This document shows positions 1 to 18,983 of a stretch of DNA of 64,000 nucleotides, one piece after another (position 1 is the stretch's first letter; each line of letters opens with the position of its first letter). The translations under genes and the position numbers were made by a program. The stretch is from positions 992,001 to 1,056,000 of the forward strand of contig NZ_CP027786.1 of NCBI RefSeq assembly GCF_003795145.1. The letters are read 5' to 3'. This stretch comes from Tetragenococcus koreensis (GTDB taxonomy: Bacteria; Bacillota; Bacilli; Lactobacillales; Enterococcaceae). The notes beneath the pieces are model-generated. The model made no database searches. It saw nothing but the letters and a program-made list of their open reading frames with translations, and was not told the origin of the DNA.

Positions 1-350
1 TTATCCGCCGACATATGATGAGAGTAGATGTAATTTTTTTCTGGATTGGTCAAATGATAACCTCTCGGAAATGTTAAGTGATAAACAAAGGGAGAGTAAG
101 TACTTAAAGAATGAAGCATTACTGCAGTTTCATGAGAATATACGCCTTTAGAAAACCGTAACTGGGTTGTATATAGTTCATCAGAGTAAGAATTATCTAA
201 GAGGTAAATGCCACCCTCAAGTTTGATGAGATCGCCACGTAAATGGGCCTTTCTTATCGATTCCTTCGTTAACCCATTTTCTACTGCCTGATCTAAAGTA
301 AGAATCCCATTATGTTCTATAAAGATATTTTTTACTCTTTTTGTTAACAC
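1..350 (-). CDS. AbiEi-type antitoxin / transcriptional regulator, partial (3' end outside window)
   Basis: The reading frame opens at a GTG (350-348) about 8 bases after a GAGGTG ribosome site and stays open for 116 codons to the window edge. The first ~50 residues look like a winged-helix domain (ILTLDQAVENGLTKESIRKAHLRGDLIKLEGGIYLL). The next stretch, KGVYSHETAVMLHSLSTYSPFVYHLTFPRGYH, is typical of AbiEi family type IV antitoxins. In AbiE systems this protein represses its own operon and counteracts the nucleotidyltransferase-like AbiEii. The abiEii partner would lie immediately to the left, outside the window. The palindrome just upstream (400-434) fits autoregulation. The family call is firm; toxin activity cannot be judged here. 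Confidence 0.75.
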   Translation of the reverse strand, partial: MLTKRVKNIFIEHNGILTLDQAVENGLTKESIRKAHLRGDLIKLEGGIYLLDNSYSDELYTTQLRFSKGVYSHETAVMLHSLSTYSPFVYHLTFPRGYHLTNPEKNYIYSHHMSAD

Positions 351-399
351 TACGCTTCACCTCTTTCAACATACTTACTTAACCTTATCAAAAAATAGC

Positions 400-434
400 G
401 TAGTATAAAATGCAATTGTTGCATACTATACTAC
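400..434. promoter_or_regulatory. Imperfect palindrome upstream of the AbiEi-type gene, probable operator
   Basis: Two 16-base arms (400-415 and 419-434) match at 14 of 16 positions around a 3-base centre. The outer parts read GTAGTAT and ATACTAC. The site lies 50-85 bases upstream of the GTG start and overlaps AT-rich promoter-like sequence. AbiEi proteins are known to bind inverted repeats in their own promoter, so this is the natural candidate; the assignment is inference. Confidence 0.5.
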
Positions 435-606
435 AAAAAATTCTGGTTGTTTATTAGTAGACTATTTAATCATACTGTACTTATGATGCACAATAATAAA
501 AAATTACCTTTTTTCACTCCTGTTTATACTTTTTGATATCATCAGAATATTTTTTTATTAATGTCGGACTATAAGATTTAGTTCCTTTTTCCTGCCTTAC
601 TTTTCT

Positions 607-1161
607 TCAAATAATAGAAGCGACTTTCATTTTATTTGTATATTCATTAGAACTAGGGTCATCACAAAAATCTCTAACAAAATTATTCCATTGATAAGTT
701 CTCTCTTCTTCATTATCAATGACGTTTTCCTTATTTTGTGATTCTAAATAAGCATTAATTATACCCTTAATAGTTGCGTCATAGTCCTTCGTTCTTTCCA
801 CCTCTCTTAGCTTAATTGCCATTGCTTTTTTGAAAGAAAAATTTTTTACTTGAAAATAATTCGAAAAGAACTTCCGAGCTTCATTATTGAACGAAAAACC
901 ATTCTCAAGTAGTTTAGTATCTTCTTTCATGTCTTCAGCCTTTATTTTTTGTTTGGATCTTTCTCTTCTTCTCCTTGGCTTAAGAGACTCTGCCGGCTCT
1001 CCTTCAAGAAGACTTACAATATACTTCGTTAACTCTGCTTTCGTTCCATACGTTGGCAAACAATTTTTTCTGCAAATATCTACCAATTCTTCTTTATACC
1101 AGTAATAATCAAGAAAAGTTTTGCTGCTCATTTTAGCCGTAAATTCTGGTCTAACTGTCAT
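607..1161 (-). CDS. SAP domain protein with DUF6434-like C-terminus
   Basis: 184 residues. Residues ~20-50 (ELVDICRKNCLPTYGTKAELTKYI) form a SAP motif, a helix-bend-helix that binds nucleic acid. A basic linker (KPRRRRERSKQKIK, ~61-74) follows. The C-terminal part (~90-150; NEARKFFSNYFQVKNFSFKKAMAIKLREVE) matches the domain usually annotated DUF6434 in streptococcal and enterococcal SAP proteins. The start at MTVRPEF is preceded by a GGAG-containing ribosome site. The protein probably binds DNA or RNA, but no specific function is known. It stands alone between the AbiEi-like gene and an empty 350-base stretch. Confidence 0.75.
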   Translation of the reverse strand: MTVRPEFTAKMSSKTFLDYYWYKEELVDICRKNCLPTYGTKAELTKYIVSLLEGEPAESLKPRRRRERSKQKIKAEDMKEDTKLLENGFSFNNEARKFFSNYFQVKNFSFKKAMAIKLREVERTKDYDATIKGIINAYLESQNKENVIDNEEERTYQWNNFVRDFCDDPSSNEYTNKMKVASII

Positions 1162-1512
1162 CCCTACTCACTCCACGTTTATTTAATAGCTAAGCGTAAA
1201 TTGTACTAGGTCTTCCTGGTCGACAAATAAATGCAAGTAACGGAGTAAAGCTCACCATTCTTTTATTCGAAAACGGAATCATGAAGAATAGTTTAGAAAA
1301 AGCTTATCCAAGAATCCAATTATGGAGAAAGAATTTGAAAAGTTTTGTCTGAAATGCAAGAGCATAATTTTCAATTTATCAGATCAAGAGTCGATCAACC
1401 TCTTATCCTTTGTCTTTGCTCAGTAACCTTGCATTATCTATCAAAGATAGCGTTCATTTCAATTATTTTATCATTTCTGCTATACTTTGTATAACGCTTA
1501 CAAAAAGGGAGT
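1162..1512. other. Intergenic stretch without a recognised gene
   Basis: About 350 AT-rich bases. I see no complete open frame, RNA gene or hairpin-plus-T-run terminator. A TATACT box near 1482 could be the -10 element of the CPBP protease gene that follows. A weak resemblance of 1186-1240 to an ISLre2 end was noted but not accepted. Confidence 0.4.
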
Positions 1513-2130
1513 GTGGTCAACTTGTTTATTCAGTCAGTCATAGATGCATTGGTTCAACTAGTCATTTTCGCTGTTATCCCTTTCTTGTACTGGGCATTAA
1601 AATTCAAAAACCAAGAAAATTTTTTCCAATGGATCGGGTTAAAAAAACCAGTATTCCACAATAAGTCTAAGTCCATTATTTTTTCAGCGCTGACTTTTGC
1701 AATACTACTTCTTCCTGGAATGCTCTTACTCTTTGTTATTGATGACAAAACAATGATTGCCAATGCTCAGTTTGCTACTAAGGGATGGCAAAGTATTGGG
1801 GGTATTTTGATTTATAGTATAATCCAGACAGGCTTATCTGAAGAATTATTATTTCGTGGCTTCTTCTTGAAAATCTTTTCCAATCTGTGGGGGCTAGGCA
1901 TAGGTAGCTTTGTTCAAGCTTTGCTATTTGGACTATTACATGGCGTGATTTTGTTTGCCTCACTAAATTTCTTTTTGGTCATTACCATCATTGTATTTTC
2001 TACTTTAGCTGGTTGGCTTATGAGTTATGTAAATAATACCCTTGGAAACGGCTCGATCTTGCCAAGCTGGTTTATTCATAGTTCCATGAACATTATTTCT
2101 TCCTTGCTTCTGGCTTTTAACTTCCTATGA
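1513..2130 (+). CDS. CPBP family intramembrane glutamic endopeptidase (Abi/CAAX-protease type)
   Basis: 205 residues with about six hydrophobic segments. It carries the three family motifs: E110-E111xxxR115 (SEELLFRG), FxxxH143 (FGLLHG) and H189xxxN193 (FIHSSMN). These form the glutamate-based active site of CPBP proteases inside the membrane. Bacterial members act in peptide or bacteriocin maturation, bacteriocin immunity or sigma-factor signalling; no bacteriocin gene is adjacent, so its role is open. The GTG at 1513 lies only two bases from AAGGGAG, so the TTG at 1522, about 10 bases away, may be the real start. It is followed directly by a convergent acetyltransferase gene. Confidence 0.85.
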   Translation: MVNLFIQSVIDALVQLVIFAVIPFLYWALKFKNQENFFQWIGLKKPVFHNKSKSIIFSALTFAILLLPGMLLLFVIDDKTMIANAQFATKGWQSIGGILIYSIIQTGLSEELLFRGFFLKIFSNLWGLGIGSFVQALLFGLLHGVILFASLNFFLVITIIVFSTLAGWLMSYVNNTLGNGSILPSWFIHSSMNIISSLLLAFNFL

Positions 2131-2144
2131 TAAAAGTCCAACTT

Positions 2145-2621
2145 TTATTTTACATTATTCATTACAATAAAGTTATGTTCTCCCCCGTTCGTTTTTTGCA
2201 GTTTTTCAGTTACGTAGTTAAAACCAACTTGTTCGTAAACTTTTAATGCCCGTTGGTTAAAGTCAGCAACAGAGAGCCAGACCACTTGGCCGGAATAATT
2301 TCCCTTTAAATATTCAATGATTACTTTGACAAACCTTTCTCCCAGTCCTTTTCCAGTCAATTCCGGTTTCATGCCAAGACCTAATTCAATTTCATTTGTC
2401 GTGGGTTCTTTTGGGAATACACAGAAAAAACCAATAAGTTCTTGGTCTTTTGTTATTGAAAAAAATTTATCTCCACGTGCTAATGGGTCAATCATTTCAT
2501 CATAATCTTCTTTATCAGCAGTCATATCATAAAAATCGTAAGGCGCTGGATATTTCCAATAGTCCGCAATTTCGTCCGCTTCTTTTTGACTCCTCTTTTT
2601 TATTTGTAGGTTATCAAACAT
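2145..2621 (-). CDS. GNAT family N-acetyltransferase
   Basis: A single-domain acetyltransferase of 158 residues from the chosen ATG at 2621, which sits 8 bases after AAAGGGGA. An in-frame extension to 2657 lacks a ribosome site. The acetyl-CoA-binding motif A is visible as ELGLGMKPELTGKGLGERFV, where TGKGLG replaces the common R/QxxGxG/A, followed by motif B (ADFNQRALKVYEQVGFNYV). The substrate is not predictable. It converges on the CPBP protease gene with only 14 bases between stops. Confidence 0.85.
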   Translation of the reverse strand: MFDNLQIKKRSQKEADEIADYWKYPAPYDFYDMTADKEDYDEMIDPLARGDKFFSITKDQELIGFFCVFPKEPTTNEIELGLGMKPELTGKGLGERFVKVIIEYLKGNYSGQVVWLSVADFNQRALKVYEQVGFNYVTEKLQKTNGGEHNFIVMNNVK

Positions 2622-2857
2622 TAAGTTTTCCCCTTTAATTTTTTCAAAATTGTACAAGCTCTCACTCGACTCATATTATTATATGAATTAACTTCTGTTT
2701 TATTTATATCATAATAATTAGCTTTCCTCTACTTACTGCGGGAAAATGTTCCGGTTTGTTCGTTTATCCTAAAAGCTAATATATAATCGTCGCCTTTCAA
2801 CGATACTATTAAAATAACGTCTTTACTAAAAGTTCTCTCTGAAAGAAGGTAAACATA

Positions 2858-3544
2858 ATGAATACAAATGCAATTGCCATCGAATTACCGCTACGTGGGG
2901 AATGGTTCACAGAAGTTAGTCCAGGTGATCGTCTACCAAGTCATGGAACAAATCGTTTTGGACTACGGTACGCCTTTGATTTTATTCAAGTAGACTGGGA
3001 AAAACCAAAGCATCCCACTCACGATGAAAACAACTTTGGATATTTCACAAAAGGCATTCCGTTAGAAAGTTATTATTGTTTTGGTAAACCTGTCTACTCT
3101 CCTTTTTCAGGAGAAGTCGTTACTGTTGAAAATAACATGCTAGATGGAGAGAAAGCTTCTTGGGTTCAAGACCAGACTTCAGCAATCCGCAATTCACTCT
3201 TCTTTGATCCTAAAAGAGATGGGTTTGAAACTGTCGCTGGTAACTATGTAGTTATAAAAAAAGAAGACAAGATCTACGCAGTATTCTGTCATCTTCAATC
3301 TGACTCTATCGTAATTAAAGTAGGAGAAAAAGTTCAAAAAGGACAACGAATAGGAAATGTTGGACATACTGGAAATTCTACAGAGCCTCATCTACATTTT
3401 CATTTAGCAGATGCTGCCAACCCGGAAAATGCTCGTGGACTTCCTTTTGTTTTTGGACAATACGAAAAATACGAAAACTCAAAATGGCAAAAAGTAACAA
3501 ATGAAATTCCTGCTGCAAAAGATCATATACGGTTTGTAGGTTGA
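2858..3544 (+). CDS. M23 family metallopeptidase (LytM-like), no signal peptide
   Basis: 228 residues with an AAGAAGG ribosome site. The LytM fold is recognisable: RYAFDF with the zinc-ligand candidate D41, YSPFSGEVVTVENN, FCHLQ with H145, GQRIGNVGHTGNSTEPHLHFH with H178-H180-H182. M23 enzymes cut peptidoglycan cross-bridges. The canonical first HxxxD is changed to RYAFD, although a His lies upstream at position 29. There is no signal peptide or wall-binding domain, so the protein is either cytoplasmic or exported in an unusual way. It shares no operon with the acetyltransferase; a DUF4260 gene follows 56 bases downstream on the same strand. Confidence 0.8.
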   Translation: MNTNAIAIELPLRGEWFTEVSPGDRLPSHGTNRFGLRYAFDFIQVDWEKPKHPTHDENNFGYFTKGIPLESYYCFGKPVYSPFSGEVVTVENNMLDGEKASWVQDQTSAIRNSLFFDPKRDGFETVAGNYVVIKKEDKIYAVFCHLQSDSIVIKVGEKVQKGQRIGNVGHTGNSTEPHLHFHLADAANPENARGLPFVFGQYEKYENSKWQKVTNEIPAAKDHIRFVG

Positions 3545-3600
3545 TTTTGTGTCATGATATTATAAAAGAGTGCCATAAACAAAAGGAACGGAGCAACTTC

Positions 3601-3948
3601 ATGAATAAAAAAATCATCTACCTAGAAAATCTATTACTTTTGCTTTTTTGTATAATTTTTTACTTTAAGTCAGATCATTCTATTTTATTATTCGTTATTT
3701 TGTTCTTTTTACCAGACATATCGATTCTTTTTTATCTTGTAAATGAACAAATAGGAAGAATTGGTTATAATTTTTTTCACTCTTATAGCGTTCCACTATT
3801 GCTATTGAGCATAAATTTTATCTGGTTCTCTTCTTCCTTAATTACAGCAATCTTAGTGATTTGGGTCGCACATATTTCGTTAGATCGAGGCTTAGGTATG
3901 GGTTTAAAAGAAGAAACGTTCAAAAAAACGCACCTACAAAAATTATAA
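3601..3948 (+). CDS. DUF4260 family small membrane protein
   Basis: 115 residues from the ATG at 3601, which follows GGAACGGAG by 7 bases; the longer frame from 3541 overlaps the previous stop and lacks a ribosome site. There are four predicted hydrophobic stretches, and the conserved pattern GYNFFHSYSVPLLLL ... W-AHISLDRGLGMGLK is that of DUF4260. The function of the family is unknown. It may be cotranscribed with the M23 peptidase gene upstream. Confidence 0.8.
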   Translation: MNKKIIYLENLLLLLFCIIFYFKSDHSILLFVILFFLPDISILFYLVNEQIGRIGYNFFHSYSVPLLLLSINFIWFSSSLITAILVIWVAHISLDRGLGMGLKEETFKKTHLQKL

Positions 3949-4076
3949 ATTTACTAGGATAATTTTGGCTTATTGGATAAATATATCATTTGAAACAACT
4001 GTTGAAAATTGGAGAGTTTGCCATTCGAACAAAGCTTTTTGTATTAGCTTGTCAACATCATTACTGTAGTATAAAA

Positions 4077-4120
4077 ACAATCAAGATAAACCACTCTCTG
4101 AGTGAGTTATCTTGATTGTT
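4077..4120. terminator. Bidirectional hairpin terminator (module copy A)
   Basis: Arms AACAATCAAGATAA and TTATCTTGATTGTT pair over 14 bases around a GAG-rich loop. The hairpin is a diverged copy of the one at 5297-5343 and sits in the same position relative to the M24-type gene end. Confidence 0.7.
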
Positions 4121-4163
4121 TATTTATCATAATTTATTTTACGAACAAGTGGAACTCTGCTAA

Positions 4164-4198
4164 TTAACCAAGAATTAAATCTTTTAATTCAGTTGGGG
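4164..4198 (-). pseudogene. 3' remnant of a second M24 peptidase-like gene
   Basis: Read on the minus strand, the last codons encode PTELKDLILG followed by TAA, almost identical to the end of the M24-like protein at 5391 (GPTELEDLILG). The matching downstream sequence and terminator are also duplicated. The frame is cut at 4198, where sequence typical of an IS605-family right end begins (GGAAGCCCCAACT on the minus strand). Only about 11 codons survive. This marks copy A of a tandemly duplicated module. Confidence 0.75.
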
Positions 4199-4735
4199 CT
4201 TCCGGTGAACTACTCGCCACTTAGCTAAACCCAACGGTTCTTGACGCTTGAAGTAGGAGCTTCTTTGGAATAGAGCGTACTTACAAGTGTACATCTTTAC
4301 TCTCAGCGGTTTCTTCCTGTCTTGATGTCCACAGTCTGAACAGATTTGACTAGACGGAAACCATTTATCAACCTTGATTATTTCTCGTCCATACTAGCCA
4401 ACATTATACTGTAATAAAGGAATTTTTATACGCTTTATCTAAATTGAGTTGTGCGTTTGCTAAAGCAAGATTATCTACCTCTTTCGGAAATGGAAACTCC
4501 TTTTTATGTTTAGCGGACGTTGTAAAAATCATTTCTTTGAAGTTTCACTTTTAGTTTCTTCGTATGAATTCATTCGGTCGCCAAGCATTAGATTATAAAA
4601 CTTACGAACACAATCAAAAGACTTGGCAAAGAAAATTTCTTGCTCTTCTGTTGAATATAGTCTGAATTTATATGCTGTAATGCCGAACGAATCCCTCAGG
4701 GTTGAAATCGCATTCATTTTAGTGGGCTTTTTAAA
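4199..4735 (-). mobile_element. Degenerate IS200/IS605-family element with tnpB remnant
   Basis: An N-terminal TnpB segment is encoded at 4717-4529 (ITAYKFRLYSTEEQEIFFAKSFDCVRKFYNLML). A second piece follows at ~4520-4420 (FPKEVDNLALANAQLNLDKAYKN), then a zinc-ribbon piece at ~4400-4290 (VDKWFPSSQICSDCGHQDRKKPLRVKMYTCK). The central RuvC-like catalytic part is missing and the pieces are in different frames, so no active nuclease remains. The far end has the conserved right-end sequence GGCGAGTAGTTCACCGGAAG, from which TnpB guide RNAs derive. The element sits in the 3' end of the copy A M24-like gene. Confidence 0.75.
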
Positions 4736-4779
4736 AACTTTATCCTATAAACTATTCCAGACAATTTGTATCTAATAAA

Positions 4780-4998
4780 TCAATGCTTCTCGTTTAAAGC
4801 AATGATATTTTCAACATGTGTTTTTGATAAAGCTACAAATGCTGCAACTAGCCCGTGTAAAGCGTTAATATCTTGCATTGAAACATCTTTCCCCGGAAGA
4901 TGATCAAAGACAAACATATCTAAACATTTTACCAACTGATCCAGTGATAAACCACTTTGATAAATTTCAAAAAATAATTCTTTTTCTTCTTCTGACAT
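4780..4998 (-). CDS. Small acidic helical protein, copy A (unknown family)
   Basis: 72 residues from the ATG at 4998 (MSEEEKELFFEIYQSG), which follows GGAGG by 8 bases. An in-frame extension to 5031 would include the ribosome site. It is acidic and probably all-helical, with the conserved core DINALHGLVAAFVALSKTH. It is about 55% identical by eye to the protein at 7115-7339, and both genes have the same surroundings. I do not recognise the family. Its position next to an XRE regulator and an M24-like gene in two copies suggests these genes work together, but that is inference. Confidence 0.7.
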   Translation of the reverse strand: MSEEEKELFFEIYQSGLSLDQLVKCLDMFVFDHLPGKDVSMQDINALHGLVAAFVALSKTHVENIIALNEKH

Positions 4999-5083
4999 CA
5001 CAATCTCCTCCATTCTAAGTTTCGTTATCATAAACTAAACGAAAACATATTTACCTTATCGCAACTTATGTCTTTACCATACA

Positions 5084-5161
5084 TTTCTTTTTCAGAAACG
5101 TCAATAGAATATTATCGTAAAACGAAACTTTTTATTTCTTTTTCAGCTGTTTCGCTATAAT
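5084..5161 (+). promoter_or_regulatory. Copy A control region: two operator-like motifs and a promoter whose regulator gene is lost
   Basis: Two related 16-base motifs begin at 5084 (TTTCTTTTTCAGAAAC) and 5135 (TTTCTTTTTCAGCTGT), 51 bases apart. A TATAAT box follows at 5156. The same two motifs, with the same 51-base spacing and a TATAAT at the same distance, precede the XRE gene at 7928. In copy A no XRE frame follows; the sequence runs into the M24-like gene's terminator. The region therefore looks like the surviving promoter of a deleted regulator gene and the upstream region of the small protein gene. Confidence 0.6.
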
Positions 5162-5296
5162 AGTTGCTTAATCAGAAACAAAAGAAATCTCAAATAGGCC
5201 TGTTGTGATTTTAACTCTCTCGCATTACCAATTTAAGAGAGACAACGCTGAAGTCAGGCATTAGCACAACTTACACAGGAAATAACATTTCAGAAA

Positions 5297-5343
5297 AAAC
5301 AAGCAAGATAATTCACTCAAAGAGTAGATTATCTTGCTTGTTT
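5297..5343. terminator. Hairpin terminator downstream of the M24-like gene
   Basis: AAACAAGCAAGATAAT pairs with ATTATCTTGCTTGTTT around a short loop. It terminates the minus-strand M24-like gene and is the paralogous copy of 4077-4120. Confidence 0.75.
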
Positions 5344-5390
5344 AATTTATTTATTACAACTTATTTTACTAACAAGTGAGATCCTGCTAA

Positions 5391-6440
5391 TTAGCCAAGA
5401 ATTAAATCCTCTAATTCAGTTGGCCCTTCTGTTAGAATACGATACCCGTCTGAAGTGATTAAAACTGAATCTGAGTGACGGAAACCGCCCAATCCTTTCA
5501 CATAAAGACCTGGTTCTACTGAAATGACCATATTTTCAGTTAACAAATTATCATTTCCGCGAGAGATTGTAGGGTCTTCATGGTTATTTAAGCCTAAACC
5601 GTGTCCTGGACGGTGAAGAACCTTATCTGCTACACCGCGACTTTCCAAATAATCCATAACTTTCTCTTCAATGGAGCTAGCTTTAACGCCTGGACGTAAC
5701 ATATCTAGCATTATTTTTCTAGCTTCCATCATTATGTTGAAATATTCTTTTGCTTCTTCACTAGGTTCTTCAGTAAAGAAGGTACGTTCGCATTCAGCTG
5801 CATAACCATCTAATTTGAAGATAGCAATGTCAACGTTCGCTCCTTTTCCAATTACAGAATCTGCCTTGACGACACTGTGTGGCATATAACTGTAGTCAGC
5901 TGGCCAAACCGCGTTTTGTGTCCGATCGTGTGACTCCTTGAATTTATCCAAATCTTCTTGATGGTATTTGAAAGGAACTTGGAAAGTTTCACCGACCGTC
6001 GTTCCTGTTTTAACCATATCTAAAGTTGATCTTACAACAGAACTAGTTAGCTTAGCTACTGCTTCAATTTTTGCGACTTCATAATCACTTTTGATTGTAC
6101 GCAATTCTTTAACATAATCTGCGACGACCCAATGAGCATCTACTGAATTCGTTACAAATAGAGGTGAATTTTGTTCAATACCAATCTTATCTAATGGTTT
6201 CAGGTAGTCCTGCAAAACATCATACCAATTGTCGCCAGGTTTTGAAGTCACATCAAAATAAGTAGCTAAGTCATAATCTAGATAAGAAACATCTACGTGA
6301 GATTCTTCCAGTTTAGGAACAATGAATAGCGGTTTTTTATCTGGAAAAGCGATAAAAAAGAACGGCCTTTGTTCTGGACTGTATGCAATATTAGAAAAGT
6401 ACCAGATATCTTCAGGATCCGTTATCACATAGGCATCCAA
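5391..6440 (-). CDS. M24 family peptidase-like ('pita-bread') protein with altered metal site and probable 5' frameshift
   Basis: The open frame encodes 349 residues with an N-terminal creatinase-like domain and a C-terminal pita-bread domain. H280 (GHGLG) and E309 (SVEPGLY) are kept. The two aspartates and the last glutamate of metallo-prolidases align with I205 (D204 adjacent), E216 (AECERT) and S323 (FRHSDS), so the dimetal site looks incomplete, as in creatinase. The in-frame start here is a TTG at 6440 after AAAGGA. A good ATG with ribosome site lies at 6508, but the 24 codons between (METFETEL...KNLQALLKENS) are out of frame by one base, suggesting a single-base loss in an A-run. Either the gene is a pseudogene or translation restarts at the TTG. 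Confidence 0.7.
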   Translation of the reverse strand: MDAYVITDPEDIWYFSNIAYSPEQRPFFFIAFPDKKPLFIVPKLEESHVDVSYLDYDLATYFDVTSKPGDNWYDVLQDYLKPLDKIGIEQNSPLFVTNSVDAHWVVADYVKELRTIKSDYEVAKIEAVAKLTSSVVRSTLDMVKTGTTVGETFQVPFKYHQEDLDKFKESHDRTQNAVWPADYSYMPHSVVKADSVIGKGANVDIAIFKLDGYAAECERTFFTEEPSEEAKEYFNIMMEARKIMLDMLRPGVKASSIEEKVMDYLESRGVADKVLHRPGHGLGLNNHEDPTISRGNDNLLTENMVISVEPGLYVKGLGGFRHSDSVLITSDGYRILTEGPTELEDLILG

Positions 6441-6508
6441 GCTGTTTTCCTTTAGTAATGCTTGTAAGTTTTTATTTCGATTTTTAGTTCAGTTTCAAAA
6501 GTTTCCAT

Positions 6509-7114
6509 TTAAAACATCCTCTCTATTGTTTCGTGTGTTTTCATTCTTAAATATCTAACCAGTAGAGCTAAATCCTTATTATATTTTAGCAAAACTGTCC
6601 GTTTTAATACAAATTCAGTATAAAATGTATGCTACCTTTCAATCAACACCTTCTTTATATCAGACATGATTTCTCGTTTTTCTTAGAGAATAGCCTGTCT
6701 ACAAAAGAAAACTATTCAATTTTCCACAAAAAACTTATTATAAAGTTGTCTAGATAGCACTTTTGCTATTCTTAATTTGAAAAAGTTTCAATCACAGCTA
6801 TTAATTGACCATTATCAAGTAATCATGCTGCAACTAAGACTTTAGAAAATTTTTCCTACCCTTTTTTCTTATCATTTTTATCGAACAAACAAAAATGTTG
6901 AGGTTTATAAATGAAACCATTATTTTGTTAAATAAAATTATCTATGAATGCATTTATAGAAATTACGCTATGTGCCTATAAGTTGCCAATATTTAAAGAC
7001 TTAATACTGTCAGTTTTGCTAAAGTATTAAGTCTTTTCTTCTTGAGTTATTTAAAATTTTTTGTCTTGTCTTTCATAAGATTTTTGTCCAATACCTTTTC
7101 ACTATTAATGCTTA
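6509..7114. other. Intergenic stretch with one strong hairpin
   Basis: Six hundred AT-rich bases with no coding frame that I can support. The only clear structure is the hairpin at 6995-7037. Part of this region must hold the promoter of the M24-like gene, which would lie just upstream of 6508. Confidence 0.4.
6995..7037 (+). terminator. Hairpin terminator
   Basis: AAAGACTTAATACT (6995-7008) pairs with AGTATTAAGTCTTT (7023-7036), followed by T-rich sequence. It is 80 bases beyond the stop of the small protein gene at 7115, so it may end that transcript on the minus strand as well. Confidence 0.6.
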
Positions 7115-7339
7115 TCAGTCTAACAAATCATTAAAAGTAGTAATATCTTTAATATGACTTTTTGATAAAGCTATGAATGCTGACGTTAATCCATGCAGAG
7201 CATTAATATCTTCCATCGTAACATCTAGTCCAGAAAGTTGTTCAAGGACGAAAAGGTCTAAATACTGAATCAATTGGTCTAATTCAAAACCACTTTGGTA
7301 AACTGCACTAAATAATTGTCTTCTTTCTTCTTCAGTCAT
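7115..7339 (-). CDS. Small acidic helical protein, copy B (unknown family)
   Basis: 74 residues from the ATG at 7339, which follows GGAGGAG by 6 bases. It shares YQSG-x2-LDQL, the spacing to DINALHGL and FIALSKSHI with the copy A protein at 4780-4998. It is acidic and predicted helical with no signal peptide or membrane segment. The family is unknown to me. The divergent XRE gene at 7928 and the M24-like gene downstream form the full version of the module. Possible roles include an XRE co-factor or a toxin/antitoxin partner, but the sequence does not decide this. Confidence 0.7.
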   Translation of the reverse strand: MTEEERRQLFSAVYQSGFELDQLIQYLDLFVLEQLSGLDVTMEDINALHGLTSAFIALSKSHIKDITTFNDLLD

Positions 7340-7696
7340 CATTATCTCCTCCATTCTATTACTTTATTTCTCTCAATTGTTCTGAGTAACGATTGGCACA
7401 ACCATAGTGTTGCTCAGCTAATAAAATCACCGCAAAAACAGATCCTCAAATTGATTTGATTTGATCCAAGGTATATCACAAAAAGTGCATAGCCCATAAA
7501 TTGCGTCTTTTAACACAGTTACATCAACTTTGTGATCATCAATGTTTACAGTTTTTTATCCATTCCTCTCTTCCATCTGTTTATATTTTCTTGAGTTTTC
7601 CTTTCAATTAACTTGTTTACTTAGCGCTTTTCACAATTTTAATATAAACATGCTTTAAGAAAATAAGGTTATTTAAGTCTTTTATTTTCTCGTAAA

Positions 7697-7897
7697 TTTC
7701 TTTTTAAGAAACTTTATTTTTAGATTAAAATACTGATTTAAAGCCAAATTTAATATTTATAGTGGTTGATAGATTGTTTCTGTTTCTATTATTGCAACTA
7801 TTAACTCAAGGATATATTTCCCTTTTAGAAACGTCAATAGTTTTTTATTAAATATCGCAACTTATTATTTCTTTTTGAGCTACCGTGTTATTATAAT
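7697..7897 (+). promoter_or_regulatory. Copy B control region: three operator-like motifs and the XRE promoter
   Basis: Three 16-base motifs are visible: 7697-7712 (TTTCTTTTTAAGAAAC, a near-perfect palindrome), 7817-7832 (TTTCCCTTTTAGAAAC) and 7868-7883 (TTTCTTTTTGAGCTAC). The last two are 51 bases apart, as in copy A, and TATAAT follows at 7892. The motifs flank the XRE promoter and face the divergent small-protein gene, so autorepression by the XRE protein is the simplest reading. This is inferred from repeat structure only. Confidence 0.55.
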
Positions 7898-7927
7898 TGC
7901 GTAATTAGCAACGAAAGGAGCATAAAT

Positions 7928-8266
7928 ATGCCCGATAACGTTTTAATATCAAGAATTATCAATTTAAGAGAAGCAAATAATTGGACCCAAGTTGAACTAG
8001 GAAGAAAACTTAATCTAGATAAATCAACGATGAATAAGATTGAAAATGGCACAAGGAAAGTATCTACTAACGAGCTGGAAAAGATCGCTGATGTTTTTGG
8101 TGTTTCTACTGATTATCTGCTAGGAAGAGAGCATAAAGAATACGAGCTTCCTGAAAGTAAAAGCCAGACAGTAGCAAATCATATGGGAGATAATGTCTCA
8201 GAAGATGAAATGGAAAACATCCTTAGCTATATTGAGTTTATTAAACAGAGAAATAAAAAGAAGTAA
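7928..8266 (+). CDS. XRE family transcriptional regulator
   Basis: 112 residues with a GAAAGGAG ribosome site 7 bases before the ATG. Residues ~7-65 form a Cro/CI-type helix-turn-helix (INLREANNWTQVELGRKLNLDKSTMNKIENGTRKVSTNELEKIADVFGVSTDYLLGR). The C-terminal ~45 residues are acidic and then basic (NILSYIEFIKQRNKKK) and may mediate dimerisation. It lacks the ImmA-type protease domain or partner of ICE repressors. The duplicated 16-base motifs in its promoter are candidate operators. It is the regulator of the intact module copy. Confidence 0.85.
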   Translation: MPDNVLISRIINLREANNWTQVELGRKLNLDKSTMNKIENGTRKVSTNELEKIADVFGVSTDYLLGREHKEYELPESKSQTVANHMGDNVSEDEMENILSYIEFIKQRNKKK

Positions 8267-9053
8267 ACGAATATAATAAAAAGGTTGAAATGGTTATCTT
8301 TTCGTTTTAAAAACTCTATGCAAATTTCAAGTACAAGTTAGTCAGTCTTGTAAATCAACTTGTTACTGCATTCAAAATATTCCTTAGTACTGATTATACA
8401 ATGGCTTATCCGCTTGTTCCGTCGGTGGGAGCTTTTTGAACATTGTAGTTTTAAGTATTTTCCCTTGCGTGGTTTTGTGCTATGTTCAAATTTCGTCATT
8501 GTAAATTTATCCTTTATTGATAGTGTGGAGTCTTCAATAATACATGAAATTTCCCAATGACGGTTTTTAATGCTCAGAAGCGGCTAAGTTTATTATAAAA
8601 TTCGCGTTAATAGCTATTGAAAATATTTTGCTAATTATATCAAAGAAAACGCCTTGCCTATCATCCAGGTAAATTTTAAACGATTATTTCAAGACAAATA
8701 CGCTTTAAGTAACTTTTATCAATTATCCTTATTAAATATTAAATTTTTGGTGGATTAAATACCAATTTTGTACCTTTTTCAGCAAAATCAGATGCTAAAT
8801 TTTGTTTCTGTCCCCTAAAGCTTCCCCTTTTATCAGGGTTAATTACTACTTTAATAGACATTGGAAATATGCTTACTATGACCTTACTGTTAGCTACTCC
8901 AATAAGCAATTCAAACAAACCTTCCAACTTAGTCATTAGCTTAACAGGAATCAGTTTTTGTTAAATAATTTATACCTTTCTTACAACATTGTTTCTGTAA
9001 CCACACCCTAAATGGGAAATATAAAGAGAAAGACTGTACTACAAAACTTGAGT
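8267..9053. other. Intergenic stretch beyond the CRISPR trailer end
   Basis: About 790 AT-rich bases. No tRNA, terminator or convincing gene is visible. Two short minus-strand frames exist: 8338-8499, listed separately with low confidence, and 8739-8936, rejected. The stretch may be decayed DNA left after loss of older CRISPR repeats. Confidence 0.35.
8338..8499 (-). CDS. Possible 53-residue basic, cysteine-containing ORF
   Basis: An ATG at 8499 opens a frame of 53 codons (MTKFEHSTKPRKGKYLKLQC ...). It is rich in Lys/Arg and has three cysteines. AAAGGA lies 10 bases upstream, which is a weak ribosome site. I do not recognise it and it could be a chance frame or part of a decayed gene; adjacent sequence upstream also reads as coding-like (WEISCIIEDSTLSIKDKF) in another frame. 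Confidence 0.2.
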   Translation of the reverse strand: MTKFEHSTKPRKGKYLKLQCSKSSHRRNKRISHCIISTKEYFECSNKLIYKTD

Positions 9054-9142
9054 AAGTTACCCCCGCATGTGCGGGAAAGACCAAACAGCTTACGCTGAGG
9101 GCACACAAAGTACAGGATCACCCCCGCATGTGCGGGAAAGAC
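9054..9142 (-). CRISPR. Minimal type I-E CRISPR array: two repeats, one spacer
   Basis: The 28-base repeats lie at 9054-9081 and 9115-9142, exactly 61 bases apart, with a 33-base spacer between, the classic I-E geometry. Both contain the 22-base core with the palindrome CCCGCATGTGCGGG. Read on the minus strand, the repeat nearest cas2 is GTCTTTCCC...GGTGATCC. The far one degenerates at its 3' end (four of the last five bases differ), so it is the trailer-end repeat and the array runs away from cas2. Only 29 bases separate the first repeat from the cas2 stop, so the leader is very short or lies inside cas2. Confidence 0.9.
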
Positions 9143-9171
9143 AGTAAAAGATTCCTATAAAAGCGCCGTTT

Positions 9172-10071
9172 TTAGTTCATCATTTTCAAAAATTTATTCA
9201 CTTTTGTCGATAAATGGTAAATTATTCTAGCATCCTCTAAAGCTCGATGAGACACATGATTATTAAATCCATAACTTGGCAAGACAGTTTTTAATTTATA
9301 ATCTTTGAGAAGCATTTTTTCTCTTTTAATATAACGGATTAAATCATAAGATTTATTTGTTATCTTTCTTATTTCGCATTCTTCTAAGTAATTGTTTAGA
9401 AAACGAAGATCAAAACCAATACCGTAACCAACAATATCAAAATCTTCTATAAAGTCTACAAATTCCATTAAAGAATCTTTCAAAGGTTGCCCACTATCCC
9501 TTAATAATTCTTGAGTTATTCCAGTTAATTCAGTAATTTCTGTTGGTAAATTTCCCACATAATTAATCAATCTGTGGAAGTTCATTAGCTCTCCCTTCTT
9601 AACCTTAACTGCTCCAATTTCAATAATTTGATTCTTTTCGTAATTCAAACCATCTGTCTCAATGTCAACTACTACATAATTATGATTTGGTTCATTGGGA
9701 CGGGATTGCTGACTAGAATATTTTTTGGCTTTTCGAAATTTTGCCGCATCACTATACCCCTTGATATAATTAGCTCCACTAGATTCATCTTTGACTTCTG
9801 GCAACATCACAAGCGGAACCCCATCATAATCAACTACTTGACGTTGAGTATTTAACGTTTCAAATTGATATCCAATTTCATTTTGATAAACGTAACTCAT
9901 TGTTGCTTCTCCAGTTGAGGCACTTTGGGTTACTCTCTCCCACAGCTGTTCTCGTATTTTGGTATTAAAGTTTCCCACATAAACGCCCGTCGCTATTTCT
10001 TGCATCCACTTGGTTAAATCTCCTCGAAGCGAGTTAGGAACTTTTTTTAATGTAATAATAGTAAATGGCAT
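9172..10071 (-). CDS. cas2: Cas2e fused to a DEDDh exonuclease domain
   Basis: 299 residues. Residues 1-~95 are type I-E Cas2 (MPFTIITLKKVPNSLRGDLTKWMQEIATGVYVG...REQLWERV). After a ~35-residue linker comes a DnaQ-like 3'-5' exonuclease at ~131-299 with all five catalytic residues: D136 and E138 (VVVDIETDG), D221 (GFDLRFL), H275 and D280 (SHRALEDAR). Such fusions are known in some I-E systems, for example S. thermophilus CRISPR4, where the exonuclease trims prespacers during adaptation with Cas1. The gene starts right after the cas1 stop. It is intact although cas1 and cas6e beside it are broken. Confidence 0.9.
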   Translation of the reverse strand: MPFTIITLKKVPNSLRGDLTKWMQEIATGVYVGNFNTKIREQLWERVTQSASTGEATMSYVYQNEIGYQFETLNTQRQVVDYDGVPLVMLPEVKDESSGANYIKGYSDAAKFRKAKKYSSQQSRPNEPNHNYVVVDIETDGLNYEKNQIIEIGAVKVKKGELMNFHRLINYVGNLPTEITELTGITQELLRDSGQPLKDSLMEFVDFIEDFDIVGYGIGFDLRFLNNYLEECEIRKITNKSYDLIRYIKREKMLLKDYKLKTVLPSYGFNNHVSHRALEDARIIYHLSTKVNKFLKMMN

Positions 10072-10073
10072 CG

Positions 10074-11017
<944 letters not shown>

Positions 11018-11541
11018 CTAAACTCCTGGAATAACTGTCATCATGCCAAAGCCATATGCTTTTTTCTTACCAAAGCCTGCCGTCAATGTCTTTCTAAAAA
11101 TGGTAGCATCTTTAATTGTCAATACACCTTCATAGGTAACTTTACTCAATCGAAGGTTCTTTTGCCGGTTTTTTTTTAAAACCTCAAAGCTGCGTTCTGT
11201 AATAAAAAAATCTTCTGTATTTAATAAAAATCCATTTTTTTCTGAGCGTTCTAGCAAAAAAGTAAGTTGATCTTCCTCTGACAAGTATGGCACTACTCTT
11301 CCCCGTTGTTTCCCATCTTGTTTCTTAGAAATAACTGGGTTTAAAACAATTTTAAACCGCACTCGCATATCATCGGTCAGCGAATGCAGAAAGCTATCAT
11401 AGTCCTTACTACGAGCGCTCCCCGCTACACCATACTTTTCAAATAAATGTAAATCTGGTTTGTCAGGACTAACCACTAACAAATACTGTTTTCCTTTCAA
11501 TTGGTCAACTCGCCACAACTTTCTTGATCTTTCCTTTAAAA
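11018..11541 (-). pseudogene. cas6e: cas6e 3' part, fused in frame to an ISLre2 transposase fragment
   Basis: The last ~174 codons of a 449-codon open frame encode Cas6e, the CRISPR RNA endonuclease of I-E Cascade, from KERSRKLWRVDQLKGKQYLLVVSPDKPDLHLFEKYG to the end. The C-terminal glycine-rich loop (GFGKKKAYGFGMMTV), which contacts the repeat RNA, is present. The first ~35-45 residues are missing; the codons before (…FAPQLQPKMQEV) belong to an ISLre2 transposase read in the same frame. The catalytic His of Cas6e lies in the lost N-terminal part, so processing activity is not expected. The stop is three bases before the cas1 ATG. Confidence 0.85.
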
Positions 11542-12556
11542 GGACTTCCTGCATTTTCGGTTGAAGTTGCGGGGCGAAATACAAACGCTCTTTGATTTTT
11601 CGCTGCACGTGATAGCGATCGCGGAAGTGCTCATGTCGTAAACAACCGAGCGCCAATTCGTCAAAGACCGCTTTTTCATAACCTGAACCCCCATCACTGT
11701 TGGAAACCACAACCGTATCTGTCAAATCGTAATTCGCCTGGAGATAATGCATCATTTCTCGTTGGGCTTTTTGTCGATTCAGATCACTGATAAAATACGG
11801 GTGGATCAACGTCGAGCGTTGGCCATCTTTTTGCTTTCCTTCACACACTTGAAAACGATGAATTTCGAGGGATTGTTTTTTCTGTCCATGAATTTGCACA
11901 CCGTCCCCTTCCAGATAAAGAAATGGCACTTTTTTCTTCTCTACAACCCCGTCATAACGTTCTTCACGCGTGCTTCTTGCTTGAATAAGTGTTCCGGTTT
12001 GAACAACTAACTGCTGGACATTTTGATGGCTCATACTCCACGACGTTAAACAATCAATGGCTTTGGCGACATGGCGATAGACCATCATCGAACCTAACTC
12101 AGCGACGTTTCGCAGCACCAATGAACTATAACGGCTTCCTTTACGAATCCCTAAAAACTTATCGAGCGGGTAATAAATATCGCCTGCCGCGTTTTTCATT
12201 CGTCTTCGATGGAAGGTCACGGTGCCAAAAAGAAAGGTCACCGTCCGGGAGCTTTTTCGATCACTTTGATAGCCTTGCGCTTTGGCTTCGATAAAAAGCT
12301 CATCATCTAACTGGCGAAAGGCCTCTTGTGCTAAGAAAATGATCAGTTGGGAAAAGAAGTGCATCATCGCCTTTTCTCGTCTTAAAAAGGAGGTTTCCTT
12401 TGAATTTACCCATTTTACGTAAAGGACCGTGCGAACCCTGTTATTTTATTGGTTTTTTCTTTTTAGTGAGATTTAGGTGCTACTTTTACGAAAATAAGAC
12501 ACACAAATAGCACGCACAAAATAATGTGCGTTTTTTAAAAATATTCAATTATCGCT

Positions 12557-13813
12557 TCACACAGCGAGCGCGAGTTGATGAGCCCTGGGCCGTTTTTTCA
12601 CCCTTTTATAGGCTTGAATCCCCGTCGAATCAAATCGAAGGATCTCGGCCAGCCCTCGAATGAAGCGGTACAGCTTCAAGCGGATCTTTTGGTCCGAGAA
12701 CGTGGCTTTGGCACGATGAAGCACTTGTTTGACATAGCACGTTTCTTTTTCTAATAATAGGCTATGATGCCCGATCAAATAACTCACGAAACAATGGATC
12801 AAGCGTAAGCTATTGAGGTGGAGCGTACGTACTTTCTCTAAGTGGTATTCTTGTTTTTGGACCCGAAAATTTTCTTCAATCCGCCAACGCGTTATATAAG
12901 CTTTGACGATCGTTAGGACGTCTTCTTTGTTCTTAATGGGGTGATTGGTCAATAATTTCATGGGTTTTTGACCGTAGCCGTAGACGACCACCATATTTAA
13001 GGGAACTTTCGGTAAACAGGGAAGTTCTACGGGAATATGAGAGACTTTCAACGCATAGTTTTTGCCTTTAATGGTCGAAGAAAACGCGATTTTCCCTTTT
13101 CTTCTTAACGCTAAGTTAGGCACCTTGATCCGTTTATTCTGATACTTTAGGTAGCGCTTATCTTGGAGCCGAACGATAAAGGAAGCGTCTTGCTTGTGCA
13201 TAAATGTGAACATATCGTTACTATCGTACCCACGATCCATAACGAGCGTATAGGGTTTTTCTTGAAATAAATGCTTCACCAGGTTTAATCCTTTATAGGT
13301 TTCCACATTCGTACTGTCAAAATATTCTTCCGCAGCCGAAAACAAATGGGAATAAATCGGGATTGGATGTTTCGTCCTGGGGGAGGCAATGGCGATATTG
13401 GCTGACATATACCCTTTTTCTATGCCATCACGCGATCCATCATGAACACGAGCGAGCGCTTCAAATTGTTCGCCGAAAGGCTTCGTGATATCGGAGTTAT
13501 CGACGATGACCAGCATATCTTCCTGCAAATGAGATTGAATGGATTGTAAATAATTCTGGTGAAGCCCCTGAAAATCGTCAAAATCTGCCCCGCGATTGGA
13601 CAAACGTTTCACGGTATAAAGAAGGCGCGTATCCTCTTCTAAAGCGCGTGCGATATCAGATAGGAGCGGGGACCGGCTTTTGACTATGCCAAAAACCATA
13701 TCGAATATAAATTTTTGATCCGGTTTGGCCAATCCTTGCGCGAGTTTCTGGGAAAATTGAAAAAAATCTCGTTTTACTTGATAAATATCGGTCGGATTCA
13801 TGGTATAATACAC
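12557..13813 (-). CDS. IS4-family transposase
   Basis: 418 residues with the DDE catalytic triad: D in VIVDNSDITKPF (~109), D in LVMDRGYDSND (~198) and E in YITRWRIEENFRVQKQEYHLEK, which is the Y-(2)-R-(3)-E-(6)-K signature of the IS4 family. It spans most of the 1601-bp element and looks intact. The frame opens MYYTMNPTDIYQVKRDF; either the first or the second methionine may be the start. It belongs to the element that interrupts the ISLre2 copy next to the CRISPR locus. Confidence 0.9.
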   Translation of the reverse strand: MYYTMNPTDIYQVKRDFFQFSQKLAQGLAKPDQKFIFDMVFGIVKSRSPLLSDIARALEEDTRLLYTVKRLSNRGADFDDFQGLHQNYLQSIQSHLQEDMLVIVDNSDITKPFGEQFEALARVHDGSRDGIEKGYMSANIAIASPRTKHPIPIYSHLFSAAEEYFDSTNVETYKGLNLVKHLFQEKPYTLVMDRGYDSNDMFTFMHKQDASFIVRLQDKRYLKYQNKRIKVPNLALRRKGKIAFSSTIKGKNYALKVSHIPVELPCLPKVPLNMVVVYGYGQKPMKLLTNHPIKNKEDVLTIVKAYITRWRIEENFRVQKQEYHLEKVRTLHLNSLRLIHCFVSYLIGHHSLLLEKETCYVKQVLHRAKATFSDQKIRLKLYRFIRGLAEILRFDSTGIQAYKRVKKRPRAHQLALAV

Positions 13814-13907
13814 CTAGCCTTTCGTTGTTTATGGTTTGTTTTGGTGCAACTTAATAATACCATAGCGGAAGGCTTTTTGTGTCCACAGATTGGCCTTGTG
13901 GATAAAG

Positions 13908-13958
13908 AAAAACCGCACCGTTGCCCAGTTTTCCACTGGGGATAACGGTGCGGTTTTT
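13908..13958. terminator. Hairpin inside the IS4-type element
   Basis: AAACCGCACCGTT pairs with AACGGTGCGGTTT around a second inner stem (CCCAGT/ACTGGG), with T-runs on both sides. Many ISs carry such hairpins before the transposase gene to block transcription from flanking DNA. Confidence 0.7.
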
Positions 13959-14151
13959 CTTTTATTGGATAGGCCCTTCAGATTTTGGGTAAATTCAAAG
14001 GTTTCCTCCTTCATTACTTTAACTAAATCTGTTATAATAGACTCCATAAGAAACCGCCTCTGTTATTAGTGCCTGTCACAGCCCAATAACTAGAGTAACG
14101 GTTTCTTTTTTATTCGTCTAGGGTTGACCTCAATAAATTTTACACTTAGAC

Positions 14152-14286
14152 ATTGGAATGTTGATTTTAGTGATTGTATCTTTAGTGTTAGTTATATTAG
14201 ATAAACAGCCTAAATGGTTAGATATCATAGTATTATTAGGAATGCTGATTCTGCTATTAACAGACAAGAAAGGTTGGTTTAAATGA
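14152..14286 (+). pseudogene. 3' part of a small membrane protein gene cut by the ISLre2 end
   Basis: Directly after the IS end an open plus-strand frame reads IGMLILVIVSLVLVILDKQPKWLDIIVLLGMLILLLTDKKGWFK and stops with TGA. It has two hydrophobic segments separated by a short charged loop. A methionine at 14158 could act as a start, but there is no ribosome site because IS sequence lies immediately upstream. Its TGA overlaps the ATG of the next gene (ATGA), which indicates translational coupling in the original operon. Confidence 0.55.
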
Positions 14287-14492
14287 CAGAAAATAAAACT
14301 TCTGAAGCGCAGTTGCGTGCAAATCGTGAGTATCGCAAAAGGATAAATGAGGATGAAGAGAAGAAAAAACATCGTAACTACATGACTTCTAAAAGAACAG
14401 CTAAGTCCTTTATTAATAGCAAGGCTACACTAGAAGACATTGAAGAACTAGAACAATTAATAGAAGAACGAAAAAAAGCCCTGTCGGAGTGA
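14283..14492 (+). CDS. Small charged protein, unknown function
   Basis: 69 residues, highly charged and probably helical or coiled-coil (ANREYRKRINEDEEKKKHRNYMTSKRTAKSFINSKATLEDIEELEQLIEERKKAL). It overlaps the stop of the truncated membrane protein gene by ATGA and is followed by a strong terminator, so it is the last gene of a small operon cut by the IS. Similar short proteins are seen on plasmids and genomic islands of lactic acid bacteria. No function can be assigned. Confidence 0.65.
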   Translation: MTENKTSEAQLRANREYRKRINEDEEKKKHRNYMTSKRTAKSFINSKATLEDIEELEQLIEERKKALSE

Positions 14493-14501
14493 CGGGGCTT
14501 T
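14475..14501 (+). terminator. Terminator of the small operon
   Basis: AAAGCCCTGTC pairs with GACGGGGCTTT across a five-base loop (GGAGT). It overlaps the last codons of both convergent genes, since the Fic gene stop is at 14500. Confidence 0.8.
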
Positions 14502-15630
14502 ACAGCAATCTTAGTAAATCATAGTTAACATACAACTTATTTTTTTTCTTTGACTTATCTACGTCAATTAAATCTAAATCTACTAATTGGTTAAGTGCCT
14601 TTCTTGATGTTGAAACTGATACGTCTAAATGGTCAGAAATTTCTTTAACCGTAACGAATGGTTTTCTAAATGTAGTAAGCCAGACATGATTGATTATTGA
14701 AGAATCCTTGCTTATCTTTTGAAGACCTAGGGAAGCTAAACTAGTTATCCCATCCAACTTATCCAACATACTTTTAGCCATTCTGTTGCAAGCATCTAGA
14801 AAAAAATTGATCCAAGAAAACCAGTCTGGTGAACTCCCTCTAATCCCATTCAAAAGATTATAATATCGTATTCTTTCTTTCTCAAGTTCGTCACTTACAA
14901 AAAAAACTGGTTTATTAATCAAACCATCTTGCATAGTATTCAAAACAATAAGTATCCTACCCATACGCCCATTACCATCTAAAAAAGGATGGATAGATTC
15001 AAATTGAGCATGCATGATTGCAGTTTTAATCAAAATATCAGAATTTTCATCTAATAAAACTGAGTCAGAATTTGGATTCTTCTGAAATGACGGATGCGCC
15101 ATAGAATTAATAAAGTATTCTAAGTTTGTCATATATGAACTAATTTCATTTGCCCCTATTGGTATATAACTAGCGTCCTCTATTCTATTAGTAGGACCTA
15201 TAAAATTTTGAATTTTCCTATATTCTCCTGCATTAGCGATTGTACCTCTAGTGTTTTTTCCCATCAAAATTTTATGCAAATTTTGAATCAACCTTGTAGA
15301 AATTGGGTTACCCCCATGGATTAATTCAATTCCCTCTGATAGAGCATTCATATAATTCTCTACTTCAGTAACTTCGTCGCTCTTATTCTTTTTTGTAGCT
15401 TCTTCAATCATGTCAGCAAAGGTAACTTGAGTTCCTTCTATTCTAGTTGATTGTACAGATTCACTCAAAGTTAACATCTGTATTAACTGCGAGTTTACTA
15501 CAGAATGTTCCAATTCTGCATTTAACTTCCCAATCAAAGATTTTATTTCAGCTACTTTCTGATATAATTGTAAAGCCTCATTGGTAGTAACGATTGGAGG
15601 TAAAAAATTTATACCTTTAACTGCTGACAT
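14500..15630 (-). CDS. Fic family protein (AMP/NMP-transferase) with built-in inhibitory helix
   Basis: 376 residues from the ATG at 15630, which follows GGAGAGAG; the longer frame lacks a ribosome site. The active-site loop is H214-PFLDGNGRMGR, a full HxFx(D/E)GNGRxxR motif. The N-terminal part carries S61-xxx-E65-G66 (STRIEGT), the (S/T)xxxE(G/N) inhibitory motif, so the protein is a class II, self-inhibited Fic. Residues ~335-376 look like a winged helix (FVTVKEISDHLDVSVSTSRKALNQLVDLDLI), a common arrangement. Fic proteins transfer AMP or related groups to target proteins; the target is unknown. It lies in the island between IS remnants. Confidence 0.9.
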   Translation of the reverse strand: MSAVKGINFLPPIVTTNEALQLYQKVAEIKSLIGKLNAELEHSVVNSQLIQMLTLSESVQSTRIEGTQVTFADMIEEATKKNKSDEVTEVENYMNALSEGIELIHGGNPISTRLIQNLHKILMGKNTRGTIANAGEYRKIQNFIGPTNRIEDASYIPIGANEISSYMTNLEYFINSMAHPSFQKNPNSDSVLLDENSDILIKTAIMHAQFESIHPFLDGNGRMGRILIVLNTMQDGLINKPVFFVSDELEKERIRYYNLLNGIRGSSPDWFSWINFFLDACNRMAKSMLDKLDGITSLASLGLQKISKDSSIINHVWLTTFRKPFVTVKEISDHLDVSVSTSRKALNQLVDLDLIDVDKSKKKNKLYVNYDLLRLL

Positions 15631-15765
15631 TTTACTCTCTCCTATTCCCTTTTTAATGAACATATTATTACATTTTATTTGATAAAAATCAACAAAAATA
15701 ATCAAATAGATTTCAAAAAAGCCTAATCATAAAAAAACTGCTCACTTAAGAACAGGACTAGTTTA

Positions 15766-16569: not shown

Positions 16570-16660
16570 TTCTTCACCTCATAGTAATACTAACAAAACG
16601 TCACAAAAAAATACATATGTAAAAAAGCCGCCGCGATTAAGCGAAGGCTTTAGTAGTTAG

Positions 16661-17049: not shown

Positions 17050-17256
17050 ATCAATTTCATAATTGCTCTTTTTAAAAATACACAGATCTGCAAAATTCTT
17101 AAAACTCTATTTTCTGAAAATTCATGTGAAAAACAACTTGTAAAAGCAACACCAAACTAGACCCTTTATTTTCGTTTTTTTAAAAGGGCTTCAAGGTAAT
17201 GTTGATTAAATACGACCAATAGTTGGTTCTTCAATACGATCAGATCCAGTTTCCAC

Positions 17257-18612: not shown

Positions 18613-18763
18613 AGGGAGTACGCCTCCAGTCTTTTTTTGGTTGTTATTGTCAACTACCATTATACAGGATTGGGGGAGGTACTGCCTTTTTTGTGTGTCA
18701 AATCCCTTGAGGCACAAGAGCTCGGAATTATGAAATTCACTCAATTATAAAAAATAAAAAGCA

Positions 18764-18828: not shown

Positions 18829-18831
18829 AAA

Positions 18832-18905: not shown

Positions 18906-18983
18906 AATAAAAAAGCTACACTCTATTCTATCGCTTAGTCTGCAAAAGAGCAAGACAATTTCAGCGATAAAATAGCGTGCGAA

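Follow-up and report, generated by a model that had tools for sequence, protein, structure and literature searches.

A divergent small-protein/XRE gene pair in Tetragenococcus koreensis and its relatives in satellite-like elements

Two copies of a gene group

The DNA treated here, hereafter the window, is a stretch of 64,000 nucleotides within the 2.73 Mb genome of Tetragenococcus koreensis (G000:C1:992001-1056000; G, C and L numbers are our labels for genomes, contigs and loci). Our subject lies near its left end, where a gene for a small protein stands divergently to a gene for an XRE-type regulator (Table 1). An earlier account made from the letters and open reading frames (ORFs) of this stretch, which we call the sequence-only reading, had recognised two copies of one gene order: copy B, with an M24-like gene, the small gene and the divergent XRE gene, and copy A, which had kept the small gene together with the tail and terminator of an M24-like gene, had lost its XRE gene and was interrupted by an IS605-type element. 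Comparison of the window's DNA with itself bears out both descriptions, since parts of all three genes are indeed present twice and the XRE of copy A is decayed; to the order of copy B, which also holds, we add the correction that its M24 frame is broken near the start.

The repeated pieces comprise the 3' end of the M24-like gene with its terminator (5295-5429 against 4073-4202, 79% DNA identity), the small gene (7128-7358 against 4790-5017, 73.6%) and the promoter and start of the XRE gene (7789-7971 against 5056-5240, 71%), so that the likeness is far above chance and also old. The M24 tail of copy A ends in EAPTELKDLILG and a stop codon and its counterpart in copy B in EGPTELEDLILG and a stop codon, while the XRE start of copy A runs into three in-frame stops within the 29 codons read. 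At the protein level, the two small proteins share 57% of their amino acids (aa), whereas the copy A protein is 95% identical to that of another genome, G104; the A and B forms are therefore probably older than the split from the G104 relative. A single tandem duplication of all three genes as one unit is a possible origin of the arrangement.

Both small genes look real. Translation likely begins at an inner ATG behind GGAGG, which would give proteins of ~72-74 aa. The ratio of nonsynonymous to synonymous change (dN/dS, NG86) is ~0.08 between copy A and G104 (dS 0.33) and ~0.25 between copies A and B, at a dS of 1.0 that is near saturation; across the pairs of A or B, G104, G098 and G100:C81 for which both values were obtained it ranges from 0.08 to 0.26, with most dS near or above 1. 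These ratios do not separate selection before the loss of the copy A XRE from selection after it.

Table 1. Features of copies A and B, with positions counted from the first letter of the window
Feature	Position	Strand	Basis
Terminator-like hairpin after M24 tail A	4075..4121	.	inverted repeat, alignment
M24 3' end, copy A, truncated	4164..4213	-	translation; alignment to 5295-5429 (79% including terminator)
Cut-down IS605-family tnpB fragment interrupting copy A	4205..4676	-	PF12323 2.5e-15 on ORF 4532-4717; parts match G000:C1:965810-967100 of the same genome
Small protein gene, copy A, open	4780..5013	-	95% aa identity to G104; dN/dS ~0.08
Box array, copy A (boxes near 5060, 5094, 5123, 5174)	5060..5180	.	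box search
Decayed XRE 5' end, copy A	5192..5245	+	homology to 7789-7971; in-frame stops
Terminator-like hairpin after M24, copy B	5297..5343	.	inverted repeat, alignment
M24-like (creatinase/DoeA-like) gene, judged bystander	5391..6512	-	open from TTG 6440, upstream frame broken
Small protein gene, copy B	7115..7354	-	profile and protein searches
Box array, copy B (boxes near 7707, 7827, 7856, 7907)	7707..7915	.	box search
Putative XRE repressor gene, copy B (ImmR-like helix-turn-helix)	7928..8266	+	profile, PDB sequence search, structure prediction

The small-protein family and its settings

The sensitive profile search that the sequence-only reading had proposed for the small protein gave a divided answer: the libraries returned nothing significant, whereas profiles of our own making found relatives. 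Neither copy (P0001, P0002) has a significant match in NCBIfam or PADLOC (best PADLOC value 0.026, to GajB), and nine members of the family have none in Pfam or PHROGs. A profile of these nine members matched in 22 of the 395 genomes of the order at E<=0.01, three of the matches being weak. The set of relatives beyond the genus, from which the three weakest matches (G205, G232 and G428, E 0.004-0.008) were left aside, comprises 15 loci out of 13 genomes (L023, L024, L092-L104). Homology between the small proteins of Tetragenococcus and those of this set was found in both directions by separately built profiles: the one restricted to Tetragenococcus (6 rows) recovered all 15 non-genus proteins at E 1e-9 to 2.2e-3, with the first decoy, an ORF of L003, at 0.014 among 2896 ORFs in which overlapping loci were counted repeatedly, and the one restricted to satellites recovered those of Tetragenococcus at E<=2.3e-9, its decoys all staying at 1 or above. 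With a seven-row profile the first decoy (L087, 0.0038) ranked after every member. All six small-protein relatives that carry a name in genome contigs come from Tetragenococcus (T. halophilus, T. muriaticus and one metagenome-assembled genome). Further viral scans, as well as tblastn on phage records and on plasmids, yielded no relative, and an IMG/VR match to P0002 (L003, 19 residues) was treated as chance.

The 15 non-genus loci are mostly small integrative elements. Within 7 kb of the small gene an integrase is found in 13 of them (none in L024 and L100) and a CI-like helix-turn-helix (HTH) gene matching the repressor queries in 12, while the gene directly behind the small gene encodes a primase or replisome organiser in five loci and a phrog_2113-like protein in another five; some of these rows are self-matches, the queries having been drawn in part from the surveyed loci (integrase, L023, L092 and L093; repressors, L093, L094 and L096; replication genes, L092, L094, L096 and L103). 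Domains of phage integrase, Prim-Pol, D5/DUF5906, TerS and TerL were found in the examples L094 and L103. This order corresponds to the layout of Gram-positive phage-inducible chromosomal islands (PICIs) as outlined in PMC6092414. The L093 element, ~8.5 kb long, is set between the host genes rpmA and a pepP-like gene (host genes and ends assigned by eye), and the element of G118 (L103, L118), ~14 kb long and beside rplT, combines integrase, repressor, primase, TerS and TerL with portal- and capsid-like genes, with no tail genes visible (partly by eye). In this it resembles the capsid-forming PICIs whose presence in lactobacilli and enterococci is among the reports of PMC10803314. Also in the L093 element are an ORF of 431 aa, which has no Pfam match, and a gene of the RhuM family (PF13310).

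Inside the family Enterococcaceae the small gene was found by protein search in 10 of 105 genomes, among them eight of the nine of the genus, and in seven of these eight a divergent XRE gene lies near it. A survey of neighbours covered nine genus loci, the window included, and reached 7 kb or the contig end, the contigs of G104 and G100:C81 being ~5 kb long. Relatives of XRE B at 82-86% identity stand beside the small gene in G097, G098, G099 and G104. In T. muriaticus (G100:C81) the XRE is more distant, and a 147-aa ORF on the strand of the small gene and without a Pfam match (L016:3078-3518) lies between the two; in G102 a repressor of another type, related to a satellite repressor (1.1e-17), faces the small gene; in G101 and G100:C10 the small gene is shortened and no XRE match occurs within 7 kb. 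The survey of neighbours that the sequence-only reading had called for thus upholds the company of small protein and XRE, and not that of the M24-like gene, which accompanies the pair in the window only.

The XRE gene and the M24-like neighbour

Structure prediction defines the XRE protein best in its HTH (pLDDT ~90 for residues 11-60), its C-terminal helical part being uncertain. The sole match at E<=1e-5 in a PDB sequence search is the Xre regulator of ICEBs1 (7t8i, 1.3e-6), confined to residues 9-67 and hence to the HTH. In ICEBs1, as PMC6540685 summarises it, ImmR holds the excisionase and the genes behind it repressed until the regulator is removed. The XRE of copy B is like ImmR in being a short XRE protein, presumably a repressor, with similarity over the HTH, and unlike it in that no ImmA-like gene is seen beside it (ORF list inspected by eye, no profile search made). 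Matches to PADLOC models (best PDC-M69A, 1.6e-13; capH, 5.4e-13; and others) are taken as general HTH similarity. Between the divergent genes recurs the box [A/C]G[A/C]AAC, with four plus-strand occurrences each in copy A, copy B and G104 and six in T. halophilus (G098), against a mean of 0.19-0.35 in shuffled intergenic regions; the successive distances among the last four boxes are 29, 22-23 and 29 bp, both in G104 and in T. halophilus. We regard this recurrence as suggestive only. A paralog of the XRE elsewhere in the genome (G000:C1:174309-174617, L059; 50% identical) has an ImmA-like ORF and genes resembling those of phage lysis behind it (by eye); the region is likely a prophage remnant.

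The M24-like gene of copy B is interrupted within its first ~25 codons: its 349-aa ORF begins at TTG 6440, with stops upstream in the same frame, whereas the N-terminal stretch of the G104 relative is open and stop-free. That its metal site is altered, as the sequence-only reading had it, is seen in an alignment of five subfamily rows against the paralog of the same genome (L036). At the positions that we take to be the metal ligands, the second Asp has become Glu and the last Glu has become Ser in all five rows, the first Asp position reads D/D/N/N/G, and His and one Glu are retained; the full set of five ligands of a metal-dependent M24 peptidase is thus lacking. In NCBIfam its scores fall far short of the cut-off for DoeA and of that for the best match, PepQ, and PADLOC gave no significant match. 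The subfamily is rare (at E<=1e-70, three of the 395 genomes of the order Lactobacillales, our own included), and its other two loci have a large gene for a membrane protein and genes for regulators as neighbours (by eye). Elsewhere, a relative on an L. plantarum plasmid adjoins YitT, DegV and TetR genes, that of Leisingera sits amid TRAP transporters, and plasmid relatives lie near TRAP, MFS and TetR genes. DoeA, a creatinase-like M24 protein, is given as an ectoine hydrolase in PMC3187862, and because it hydrolyses ectoine a catabolic role for the M24-like protein seems likelier than a regulatory one. The altered metal site and the TRAP, MFS and TetR neighbours of the plasmid relatives agree with the DoeA/creatinase branch; the broken frame and the scores below the NCBIfam cut-offs do not. 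Phage records match in 25 cases, all below 60% identity and at least 20 of them at 31% or less, and P0003, the M24-like protein, matches phrog_24316 at 9.9e-41; the phage proteins are no nearer than ordinary prolidases, and we therefore drew no link to phage.

The sequence-only reading had taken the joint duplication as a sign that the three genes belong together, and had named two situations that would speak against this: homologs of the small protein apart from the other genes, and M24 genes usually found elsewhere. The small gene does occur without M24, and close M24 relatives do occur in other contexts. No M24 match was obtained within 7 kb or up to the contig end in the eight other genus loci, nor in the 15 non-genus loci save a core aminopeptidase-like gene near L093 (1.3e-33; by eye, the gene next to rpmA) and a weak match near L098 (3.6e-4) that resembles SufB, neither of which we count as an association. 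Conversely, a profile search of the loci of close M24 relatives met no small protein, and G103 has a decayed M24 copy and no small gene found in its genome. In G104 an N-terminal piece of M24 is at a contig end with other genes preceding it, and the alignment of window and G104 stops ~20 bp upstream of the M24 start, as would be expected of a rearrangement junction. The M24-like gene appears to be a bystander, a creatinase-like hydrolase unrelated to the pair. Between M24 and small gene B are two inverted arms (6581-6607 and 7001-7027; 27 nt, 85% complementary, 393 nt apart); a miniature inverted-repeat transposable element was considered and rejected, no second copy having been found in the genome.

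Origin and role of the pair

Taking these lines together, we read the small protein and the XRE as a two-gene switch kept in the chromosome, once part of the control region in a PICI-type satellite or a small prophage, and give this a probability of about 0.62. It is founded directly on the membership of the small protein in one family with its satellite relatives, the satellite-like gene order of those relatives, the divergence of the pair, the boxes and the low dN/dS; the origin in a satellite is what we infer from them. By this account the ImmR-like XRE would bind the box array and silence the small gene, and on loss or neutralisation of the repressor, that is, inducibly, the small protein would be produced. 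The latter, predicted as two long helices (pLDDT 67), may be a short product of an early operon, in satellites often made from just before the replication genes, and would probably work by binding another protein; from this position we would guess at a replication accessory or interaction partner. XRE B might control both small genes, that of copy A in trans, and the M24 gene would have been moved beside the pair by rearrangement. In known PICIs the regulatory genes form a divergent pair that includes a master repressor. Here the XRE, the presumed repressor, faces the small gene; relatives of the small gene occur in elements of the order integrase and repressor / xis-like gene ... small gene, primase or replication gene, whereas Tetragenococcus shows the repressor and the small gene alone.

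Several observations weigh against this account. The small gene of the satellites lies several genes from the repressor and is not directly divergent from it; in none of the nine genus loci, two of them on ~5 kb contigs, does an integrase stand beside the repressor, and xis-like and replication queries found no match there, so that the satellite origin rests on homology and not on a surviving element. The non-genus candidates were gathered by a profile of mixed membership, and they are not fully independent, the elements of G118 and G124 being nearly identical. As to the boxes, they were read from the very alignment that was scored, and in homologous regions, so that the shuffle test overstates the evidence; furthermore, they also occur on the opposite strand (copy A 3, copy B 3, G104 0, G098 2), and T. 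muriaticus (L016) has none of them and two TAGAAC repeats instead. Finally, confidence in the small-protein model is modest, and with it Foldseek gave nothing at E<=0.001, only generic helical matches (best E 0.55).

The main rival is that the pair is a plain relic, the decaying leftover of a satellite or prophage without present function. The lost XRE of copy A, the shortened small genes of G101 and G100:C10 with their missing XRE, and the broken genes and transposases of the island all speak for decay; nevertheless, we hold it unlikely on balance, given the dN/dS of 0.08-0.26 among the Tetragenococcus pairs (at the high dS noted above), the 82-86% identity of the XRE in G104 and T. halophilus and the retention of the box array. 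Rather less probable is a domesticated pair serving as a free-standing immunity switch, in which the XRE would silence satellites or phages that enter the cell with matching operators, the released small protein would block or redirect replication, and copy A would be controlled in trans. We are similarly doubtful of a toxin-antitoxin-like or two-gene defence unit, with the small protein as a toxic or phage-blocking effector restrained by the XRE. AbiE-like, Fic and CRISPR-Cas pieces nearby would suit it, as would the matches of the XRE to PADLOC models and the placing, in the account of PMC6092414, of interference genes in the same transcribed arm of PICIs, but the small protein itself has no significant PADLOC match, in satellites its gene often precedes the replication genes and is not within the later cargo, and copy A survives without an XRE of its own. 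That all three genes act jointly in defence or stress response is highly improbable. The twofold occurrence of their pieces in the window argues for it, and in G284, one of the other two genomes with the M24 subfamily, an XRE-type gene follows directly downstream of M24 on the same strand, though it differs in kind and carries a membrane segment (by eye); yet the pair stands without M24 in G097, G098, G099 and, on contigs of ~5 kb, in G104 and G100:C81, the small protein is missing from the other loci of close M24 relatives, and homology to G104 ends just before the M24 start. We rejected this idea on genomic context, where it fell by the tests proposed for it.

A switch derived from a satellite or small prophage, as we favour, gives context to a protein family without a significant match in four profile libraries, one whose genes turn up repeatedly in lactic acid bacteria on PICI-type satellites, often right before the replication genes. 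No publication on the pair was among the top-ranked literature matches. The stripped-down Tetragenococcus pair also offers a minimal system of repressor, operators and small protein alone.

The surroundings contain a few further features. At 9059-11014 of the window are two repeats of the CRISPR (clustered regularly interspaced short palindromic repeats) type, a Cas2 (CT1978 type) joined to an exonuclease of the RNase_T type, and a cas1 divided between two ORFs, together a broken adaptation module; in the relatives G101 and G100, similar repeats form arrays. In positions 1-20000 of the window a tRNA was the only feature that Rfam recognised at the gathering score. An AbiE-like pair is located at the window's left edge and reaches beyond it to the left (L065:11145-12350), with a short AbiEii-like ORF (PF08843, 2e-8) and an AbiEi match below the cut-off, and in G104 a longer AbiE-like pair (by eye) stands beside the small/XRE pair.

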